Assembly: GCA_947629515.1 (NCBI GenBank)
Contig: CANRDY010000004.1
Span: 1-64,000 of the forward strand
Length of the DNA stretch: 64,000 bases
Reading direction: 5' to 3'
From: an uncultured Clostridia bacterium
GTDB lineage: Bacteria; Bacillota; Clostridia; Christensenellales; Borkfalkiaceae
The position numbers and the translations under genes were made by a program. Position 1 is the stretch's first letter, and each line of letters starts with the position of its first letter. The notes below the pieces were generated by a model that saw nothing but the letters and a program-made list of their open reading frames with translations, ran no database searches and was not told the origin of the DNA. Positions 54,571-57,559 of this stretch are shown here, piece after piece.

Positions 54571-54909
54571 CTAACAGCCCAAGAACTCCACGCCTTTTAA
54601 CATAACGTCGTTCACGGTCTCGTTCACCAAAGAGTAAAAAATTATCTTGCCGTGACGTTCGCACTTTACAATACCGAGGTTTTTCAAAAGCCTCAGCTGG
54701 TGCGAAACGGTCGTTTGATTTATATCGAGAACCCTCGAAATATCGGTTACGCACATTTCCGATATAGCCAACGCAGACAACATTCTCACGCGCGTGGGGT
54801 CGGCAAAAATCGAAAAAAAGCAAACTATGCTGTCGAGCACGTCGCCGTCGGGCACATACTCGCGCACCAAATCCTTAGTACGTCTGTCTAAAAGCATCGT
54901 ATCCTGCAT
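54571..54909 (-). CDS. ArsR-family winged-helix transcriptional regulator
   Basis: FADPTRVRMLSALAISEMCVTDISRVLDINQTTVSHQLRLLKNLGIVKCERHGKIIFYSL. Confidence 0.92.
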   Translation of the reverse strand: MQDTMLLDRRTKDLVREYVPDGDVLDSIVCFFSIFADPTRVRMLSALAISEMCVTDISRVLDINQTTVSHQLRLLKNLGIVKCERHGKIIFYSLVNETVNDVMLKGVEFLGC

Positions 54910-54999: not shown

Positions 55000-57483
55000 T
55001 CACTTGCTCTCGATTGCGGTAACGGTGTAGCCCGCTTCGGTAACTGCGGCTTTGATTTCCTCGTCCGAAACCTCTTCGCGGCTGCGTATAACGGCGCATT
55101 TCTTTTTGAGTTTAACGTCCGCCGAGACAACGTTCTTTACAGCCGCAAGGTGTTCTTCGACCCTCTTTGCGCAGTGTTCGCAACACATTCCGTCGATCGA
55201 TACGATTTTTTTCATAAAAATTTCTTCCTTTATATTTTCATTTTTAATTTTTTTGTTTTTATAAAGCAACAGCCGCAGGGCGTTACCCACCACAAACAGC
55301 GAGCTTAAACTCATGCACGCGGCGGCAATTGTAGGAGTGAACACAAAATTCAATGCCGAAAAAGCTCCCGCCGCAACGGGTATCATAATTACGTTGTAGA
55401 AAAACGCCCAAAAGAGATTTTCTTTGATATTGCGAACCGCCGCACGGCTTAAATCGAACGCCGTGTCGAGCGTTCTCAGATCCTCGCGCACGAGCACTAC
55501 GCCCGCAGAATCTATGGCGACGTCGGTTCCGCTGCCTATGGCGATACCCACGTCGGCTTGCTTCAGGGCGGGGGAATCGTTTATCCCGTCGCCCACCATG
55601 GCAACGCAACCGCCAGCGTTTTGAACGTTTTTGACGGCGTTCAGCTTATCCTCTGGAAGAACGTCGGCAACAAACTCGTCAAGCCCCACTCTTTCGGCAA
55701 CGGCTTTTGCCGTGGACTCGCTGTCGCCCGTGAGCATTGCAAGCCTCATTCCGCGCTCTTTCAAAAGGCTGATTGCCTCTGCACTGCCCTCTTTTACGGT
55801 ATCGGCAACGGCTATGAGCGCAAGAACCTTTTTTTCGTCCGAAAGGTAAATAACCGTGTTTCCCTGAGCCGAAAGTTCGCTCGCCTTTTTGGCGACCTCG
55901 GAGGGAATTGCGGCTTTGCCCACGTTTTTGGAATTGCCCAATCGCCAGACCTTGCCCTCGAACTCCGCCGAAGCCCCCTTGCCAGCCGTATATTCAAAGT
56001 TGGTAACTTCCGCTCCCTCTTCGCAGTAGTCGGTAACGCACTTTGCGAGCGGGTGATTTGAATTTTTTTCGATGCCGCTTGCAATGAACAGCGCGCGGTC
56101 GCGGTCTATGCCGAACGCGTAAACGCCCGTTACGCGGGGTTTACCCTCGGTTATCGTAGCCGTTTTATCGAGCAGAACGGCGTTCACCGAACAGAGGTTC
56201 TGCAAAGTTTCGGCGTCTTTGTAGAGTATGCCGAGCGAAGCCCCCTTTCCCGCCGCCGTCATAATTGCGACGGGCGTTGCCAGCCCCAACGCGCACGGGC
56301 ACGACACAACAAGCACGTTTATCGCATAAGTCACGCAGTGCTGAGGGTTGAACCCGCGGTCAATTAAAAGCCAGATTATAAAGGTAAGAACGGCAAACGC
56401 CGTTACGAGCGGTACAAAAACACCCGCCACCTTGTCGGCAAATTTCTGAATGGGGGCTTTGCTTTCGCCCGCCTCGCGCACCATTTTTATTATTTTGGAA
56501 AGGGTGGTCTCTTCCCCCACCTTTTCGGCGCGCATTTTTATAACGCCGCTCTTGACGAGCGCGGCGGAGGTTATCATATCCCCCGCAAAAACTTCAACGG
56601 GCACGCTCTCGCCCGTGACGGCGCACTTATCGACAAACGAAGTTCCCTCGGTAATTACCCCGTCGACGGGAACGTACTCCCCTTGCTTGACCACAAGGAT
56701 ATCGCCCTTTTTTACGTCTTTGACCGAAATTGTAATTTGCTTTCCGTCGACCTCTTTCGTAACCGTGTCGGGCGCAAGTTTCAAAAGTTTTTCAATTTCG
56801 CCGCCCGTGCGCCTTTTCGACTTCTCTTCGAGCCATTTACCGACAGTTACGAGCGTGAGGATCGTTGCCGCGCTTTCGAAGTGCAGGCTCATGTGGAGCG
56901 CGACGAACTCCGCGTTCCCCTGCGCCTTTCCAATAAATATAAGAACCGTAAGCACGAGCGCGTACGTGAACGAAACGCCCGAGCCTAATGCAACGAGCGT
57001 ATCCATATTGGGAACGCGCTTAAAAAGTGCGACCGCGCCGTTCTTGAAAAAGGCGTAGTTTATGCCGATTATCGCCGCCGAAAGTATGAGCTGATAGAGC
57101 GAAAACCACTGCTCGTTGCCCTTTGCGGGGTCGATGAAAAAGGGAAGCGGAAAATTAAAGGGCTTCATGTGCCCCATCGATACGTACAAAAGGGGCAAAA
57201 GCACGATTACCGATATTATAAATCTAATAAAAAGTTTTTTATCCTGCGGCTTTTCCTTTGCCTCGGGAAGTTCGCCCTCGTTGAAAATGCCGTAGCCGAG
57301 CGATCTTACCACTTCGAACACGCGCTCTTCGCCGATCACGCTTTCGTCAAAGTCGATTTTCATCGACTTTCCCATAAGGCTGACTTCGCAAAGCGACACG
57401 CCGTCGAGCTTTCCCACCGCTCTCTCTATGCCGGACGAGCACGCCGAACACGTCATGCCCGTGACCGAATATCTCTTTTCCAT
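55000..57483 (-). CDS. copA: Copper-translocating P-type ATPase with N-terminal HMA domain and in-frame C-terminal CopZ-like HMA domain
   Basis: GMTCSACSSGIERAV; VVSCPCALGLATP (CPC); DKTATITEGKP; VGDGINDSPALKQAD; C-term MKKIVSIDGMCCEHCAKRVEEHL. Confidence 0.95.
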   Translation of the reverse strand: MEKRYSVTGMTCSACSSGIERAVGKLDGVSLCEVSLMGKSMKIDFDESVIGEERVFEVVRSLGYGIFNEGELPEAKEKPQDKKLFIRFIISVIVLLPLLYVSMGHMKPFNFPLPFFIDPAKGNEQWFSLYQLILSAAIIGINYAFFKNGAVALFKRVPNMDTLVALGSGVSFTYALVLTVLIFIGKAQGNAEFVALHMSLHFESAATILTLVTVGKWLEEKSKRRTGGEIEKLLKLAPDTVTKEVDGKQITISVKDVKKGDILVVKQGEYVPVDGVITEGTSFVDKCAVTGESVPVEVFAGDMITSAALVKSGVIKMRAEKVGEETTLSKIIKMVREAGESKAPIQKFADKVAGVFVPLVTAFAVLTFIIWLLIDRGFNPQHCVTYAINVLVVSCPCALGLATPVAIMTAAGKGASLGILYKDAETLQNLCSVNAVLLDKTATITEGKPRVTGVYAFGIDRDRALFIASGIEKNSNHPLAKCVTDYCEEGAEVTNFEYTAGKGASAEFEGKVWRLGNSKNVGKAAIPSEVAKKASELSAQGNTVIYLSDEKKVLALIAVADTVKEGSAEAISLLKERGMRLAMLTGDSESTAKAVAERVGLDEFVADVLPEDKLNAVKNVQNAGGCVAMVGDGINDSPALKQADVGIAIGSGTDVAIDSAGVVLVREDLRTLDTAFDLSRAAVRNIKENLFWAFFYNVIMIPVAAGAFSALNFVFTPTIAAACMSLSSLFVVGNALRLLLYKNKKIKNENIKEEIFMKKIVSIDGMCCEHCAKRVEEHLAAVKNVVSADVKLKKKCAVIRSREEVSDEEIKAAVTEAGYTVTAIESK
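55213..55232 (-). promoter_or_regulatory. Internal Shine-Dalgarno and ATG for possible independent CopZ-like product (55000..55215)
   Basis: Reverse strand AAAGGAAG-AAATTTTT-ATG; SD 8 nt before an in-frame ATG that begins an intact 71-aa HMA domain. Confidence 0.65.
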
Positions 57484-57516: not shown

Positions 57517-57559
57517 ATTATACGCTTTAATTCCTATTTTGTCAATAGGAATTAAAGCG
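57517..57559 (-). promoter_or_regulatory. copA promoter inside a perfect inverted repeat (candidate operator)
   Basis: 16-bp arms CGCTTTAATTCCTATT/AATAGGAATTAAAGCG with 5-nt loop (57523-57559); reverse strand TTGACA (57540-57545) - 17 nt - TATAAT (57517-57522). Confidence 0.9.

Follow-up and report, generated by a model that had tools for sequence, protein, structure and literature searches.

A copA gene of Clostridia with an in-frame nested copZ and its probable second product, a free copper chaperone

INTRODUCTION

The Escherichia coli copA gene undergoes a programmed frameshift that gives rise to a second product, CopA(Z) (Meydan 2017; Drees 2017; as described in PMC9548414, PMC7558416 and PMC5009743). 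According to these descriptions, E. coli has no separate copZ gene and obtains both its pump and a free copper chaperone, about 70 residues long, from copA; the chaperone corresponds to the N-terminal domain and is produced by −1 frameshifting at a slippery site with a pseudoknot. In other systems, CopZ is a protein that loads CopA (PMC7558416). In the copA-copZ operons of Firmicutes the same two functions are encoded in the same order by two genes, with copZ having its own start. Short products can also be made from within longer bacterial genes: RpnL/RpnS and Cas10d/Cas11d are genes within genes, in which RpnS and Cas11d come from internal starts (PMC10327210).

Here we describe a copA locus in a 64,000-nucleotide stretch of DNA from an uncultured Clostridia bacterium (contig CANRDY010000004.1, positions 1 to 64,000), referred to below as the window. 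A preliminary description of the locus had drawn the parallel with E. coli copA. The likeness in function is upheld, in that a pump and a free chaperone of about 70 residues would again come from one gene; the likeness in mechanism is not, in that the E. coli product is N-terminal and depends on a slippery sequence, whereas here the domain is C-terminal, in frame and equipped with its own Shine-Dalgarno (SD) sequence and start, with no conserved slippery site. The arrangement differs from the Firmicutes operons in having no separating stop, so that CopA also bears a tethered CopZ. It resembles RpnL/RpnS and Cas10d/Cas11d, which likewise have a widely conserved C-terminal domain with an internal in-frame start inside a longer gene; those are other proteins with another role, and they were shown by experiment, while the nested copZ is inferred from sequence. 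A literature search, with subscription journals mostly outside its reach and novelty hence unproven, returned no earlier report of internal initiation of CopZ or of a copZ nested in copA.

RESULTS AND DISCUSSION

Structure of the fused gene

The copA gene is a single uninterrupted frame on the reverse strand (55000–57483) encoding an 827-residue P1B-type Cu+-ATPase with an HMA domain at both termini; copA does indeed read through into CopZ without a stop, as had been noticed earlier. The N-terminal HMA domain, identified by a domain match at 57292–57471 on the reverse strand, contains the motif GMTCSAC, and between it and the C-terminal HMA domain lie the E1-E2 ATPase and hydrolase domains. 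The protein passes the curated model for copper-translocating ATPases (TIGR01511, 544.9 bits against a cut-off of 397), and its motifs are complete, namely CPC in TM6, YN in TM7, MSLSS in TM8, and TGES, HP and GDGIND. The phosphorylation signature at residues 445–449 is DKTAT and not DKTGT, such that the Asp and Lys are kept and Gly is replaced by Ala. DKTAT is also found in 48 copies from the genus and at loci L064, L146 and L214, and DKTGT is present in a distant CopA paralogue of the genus. The protein is thus classified by the curated model as a P1B-1 Cu+-ATPase with a variant signature, for which pumping activity is predicted.

The last transmembrane segment is joined to CopZ by a linker (55216–55260, reverse strand), which contains a run of seven A residues (A7, 55248–55254, reverse strand) and an internal SD sequence, AAGGAAG (55230–55224, reverse strand), of a kind conserved across the class. 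The ATG at 55215–55213, which is Met757 of CopA, follows with a spacing of 8 nt and opens a nested in-frame copZ (55000–55215, reverse strand), in agreement with the preliminary description. The encoded segment is a 71-residue HMA domain with the sequence GMCCEHC, which fits MxCxxC. It matches PF00403 with 46.7 bits (cut-off 24.8), and its PDB matches include CopZ structures. Its best score against the curated NCBIfam CopZ models, 56.6 bits for NF033794, is below the cut-off of 95, and because this cut-off is missed the segment is named CopZ-like.

Distribution of the fusion

Almost all of the 60 congeners share this fused frame, over linkers of 12–43 residues. It was followed further in two samples. 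The distant set consists of 79 loci from named genomes (Lachnospiraceae, Oscillospiraceae, Ruminococcus, Acetobacterium, Borkfalkia, Olsenella, Treponema and others), 63 of which are fused. Since the scan for the distant set had used the full protein, a class-wide sample was drawn independently, by searching 243 genomes from the class using a CopZ-less query that ended before the linker; this gave 87 copA loci, of which 58 are fused. The linker, counted from the conserved ..NALRL to CopZ, reaches 105 residues class-wide and 123 in the distant set, in every case in frame. Culturable species with a fused copA include Acetobacterium tundrae, Ruminococcus flavefaciens, R. albus and Butyrivibrio sp. 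FCS014. These comparisons show that the copA-CopZ fusion is real, rather than an error or chance, and that it occurs both in this gut bacterium and across a large part of its class.

A sequencing indel or assembly error had earlier been proposed as a possible source of the fusion. It is ruled out, because over 160 of the sampled loci share the fusion.

A tree built from 180 CopA cores requires a minimum of 14 switches between the fused and the unfused state. In some relatives that are unfused (for example L149, L208 and L220), copZ lies immediately downstream of copA.

Start codon and Shine-Dalgarno sequence at the CopZ boundary

SD sequences were scored by match length, and the expected numbers were obtained by redrawing the ten upstream codons synonymously according to each gene's own codon usage. 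An identical best-start rule was applied to test sites and controls. All 53 genus copies have a start codon at the CopZ boundary (52 ATG and one TTG), and 51 of them have an SD match of at least 4. Matches of at least 5 number 38 against 20.0 expected (z 5.7; here and below the z values overstate independence, the sequences being related), while matches of at least 6 (13 against 8.9 expected) are not clearly above expectation, AAGGAAG being a moderate SD sequence. A start codon is present in 60 of the 63 distant fused loci, with SD matches of at least 6 in 42 against 13.3 expected (z 10.3). In the class-wide sample, 57 of the 58 fused genes have ATG or GTG at the CopZ boundary, 55 have an SD match of at least 5 (23.4 expected, z 9.6) and 40 a match of at least 6 (11.0 expected, z 11.1). 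At the threshold of 5, matches were found in 7% of gene-body windows and in none of ten second (internal) N-terminal HMA domains, which served as controls. The nested copZ has a stronger SD sequence than copA itself, with matches of at least 6 in 69% against 50%.

A test based on duplex energy, using a pooled codon null, gave a mean of −7.7 against −5.6 kcal/mol, with no single locus reaching rank 0.05. Near the start, Lys before Glu is encoded by AAG in a ratio of 26:3, compared with 94:87 elsewhere (p = 8e-5). The start region is AT-rich and more weakly structured than the gene body in 96–100% of cases, which may reflect composition alone, and it should be noted that purine-rich Lys-Glu linkers by themselves raise the number of SD-like matches. 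The four fused genes that have no start codon (L083, L108, L114 and L185) also have no SD sequence; in a further four (L068, L233, L047 and L060) a start codon is present and the match rule finds no SD sequence. L148 has two C-terminal HMA domains and a start only at the last. Taken against the synonymous null, the data indicate that an in-frame internal start with an SD sequence is conserved in fused copA beyond the constraint of coding.

Two C-terminal HMA domains are also seen in CopA of Catenisphaera adipataccumulans (L067), where the last is preceded by AAGGAGG and ATG.

Free copZ genes in fused and unfused genomes

A strong free CopZ was found in 3 of 20 fused and 18 of 20 unfused genomes (Fisher p = 3.4e-6), where strong is defined as an open reading frame of less than 130 residues with an HMA match at E < 1e-12, a cut-off chosen after the lists had been seen. 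HMA proteins with weaker matches are present in fused and unfused genomes alike, and additional small HMA reading frames occur in some congeners whose copA is fused. No free copZ gene was found in the assembly to which the window belongs, which does not prove it missing because the assembly is 92.6% complete.

In two congeners copA has been lost or has decayed and copZ has been kept. In G017, copA is gone from the syntenic locus (L058, G017:C14), which is flanked by an asparaginase-like gene upstream and an ArsR gene downstream, and copZ remains with its SD sequence and ATG. In G006 (L057, G006:C5), copA has decayed to an open frame of 455 residues with GEGIGD in place of GDGIND, and the copZ that follows is intact and lies in a different frame. 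Both genomes retain a distant CopA paralogue, fused and with an internal start. At these two loci, copZ and its start outlive copA.

Proposed expression and alternative explanations

The copA gene most probably has two products in one frame, CopA with a tethered CopZ-like domain and free CopZ made by internal initiation. Ribosomes initiating at 57483 would make the 827-residue Cu+-ATPase, always ending in the tethered domain, while on the same mRNA 30S subunits binding the internal SD sequence would initiate at ATG 55215 to give the free 71-residue CopZ. The nested copZ would then substitute for the stand-alone copZ of unfused relatives, and free CopZ would load CopA with Cu(I). That initiation takes place here, and that CopA is loaded in this way, we infer from sequence, as we do anything concerning the amounts of the two products. 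The fusion most likely goes back to a copA-copZ operon in which the stop codon of copA was lost and the start signals of copZ stayed in place, an origin suggested by unfused relatives in which copZ directly follows copA.

In an alternative reading, the 827-residue protein is the sole product, and the internal ATG and SD sequence are either remnants of a copZ that was once separate or a pause site assisting the linker or the C-terminal domain to fold. Cu+-ATPases with a metal-binding domain at the C-terminus are known, Archaeoglobus CopA being an example; SD sequences can be mimicked by purine-rich linkers; and the repeated changes of state on the tree mean that some fusions may be recent. Against this, the linker has diverged in both length and sequence within one genus while the SD sequence and ATG have been retained, and the SD sequence is above synonymous expectation class-wide. 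A pause signal has no need of a start codon at a fixed distance. Most fused genomes are without a strong free copZ, and copZ survives the loss of copA in two genomes, making a fusion without a second product unlikely. A separate short transcript, arising from an internal promoter or from processing and using the same internal start, is more doubtful still as the source of free CopZ. The E. coli chaperone is described as arising partly from differential transcripts (Drees et al. 2017, cited in PMC9548414 and PMC7558416), but our promoter scan found strong sigma-70-like promoters only upstream of copA and of the ArsR gene, and none on the correct strand within copA upstream of copZ.

Of the four mechanisms put forward in the preliminary description, internal initiation is thus strongly supported by the conservation of SD sequence and ATG beyond protein constraint, and the indel has been dealt with above. 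The remaining two, slippage on A7 (by RNA polymerase, ribosome or replication) and phase variation, would toggle between fused and unfused products. The A7 run is present, and a shift of one base in either direction does end CopA inside the linker, after 746 residues if an A is added and after 750 if one is lost. Such stops are however uninformative, because stops in the other two frames within 40 codons of the last transmembrane segment are found in 94–98% of relatives and are to be expected in AT-rich linkers of this kind. Across the junctions of relatives it is the fusion that is kept and not the A run: A7 occurs in 3 of 48 genus orthologues, A5 being the commonest state, and the frame stays open over many linker lengths. 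The window copA contains four A7 runs. Slippery heptamers in phase, as expected for frameshifting of the E. coli type, are found in only 34 of 171 linkers, and by direct reading the AAC AAA AAA ATT of the window contains none. An internal start would in any case still be required to make CopZ. The A7 run is incidental, and slippage or phase variation has a very slight probability.

Internal in-frame initiation on the copA mRNA is also the simplest account. More widely, we think it likely that across a great part of the class around Clostridia copA has taken up copZ in the same frame without erasing it as a gene: the nested copZ retains a ribosome-binding site of its own, and a single gene thereby provides the cell with its free chaperone as well as with a pump to which a chaperone is tethered. 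This would be a second bacterial route to the same end, unrelated to the frameshifting of E. coli. If so, a pump and chaperone from one copA have evolved by different routes, and the routine annotation of a fused ATPase stands for two proteins in very many gut bacteria. It would also explain the apparent absence of copZ from fused genomes, and extend the short list of genes within genes in bacteria by a metabolic and deeply conserved example.

Promoter, operator and neighbouring genes

The copA promoter (TTGACA-17-TATAAT, 57545–57517 on the reverse strand, within 57517–57555) is overlapped by a palindrome, AATTCCTA-N9-TAGGAATT, at 57529–57553, which is a likely operator. The sole other exact copy in the genome is in the promoter of nifS, which encodes a cysteine desulfurase (L235 1501–1525, G000:C6:2876–2900), and a control search with the reversed pattern gave no matches. 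No genome among 30 congeners has more than two exact sites, and each exact site for which the surroundings were fetched precedes copA or nifS. A gene for an Rrf2/IscR-like regulator lies near nifS in the genome of the window, as it often does in congeners. It is likely that copA and nifS form a two-gene copper/Fe-S regulon, and copper export may be tied to a regulator of Fe-S cluster assembly; the protein binding at the palindrome would presumably be of the Rrf2 family.

Just downstream of copA is a gene for an ArsR/SmtB-family regulator (54571–54909), which has a perfect TTGACA-18-TATAAT promoter of its own. An ArsR/SmtB-family gene is retained downstream of copZ at both L057 and L058.
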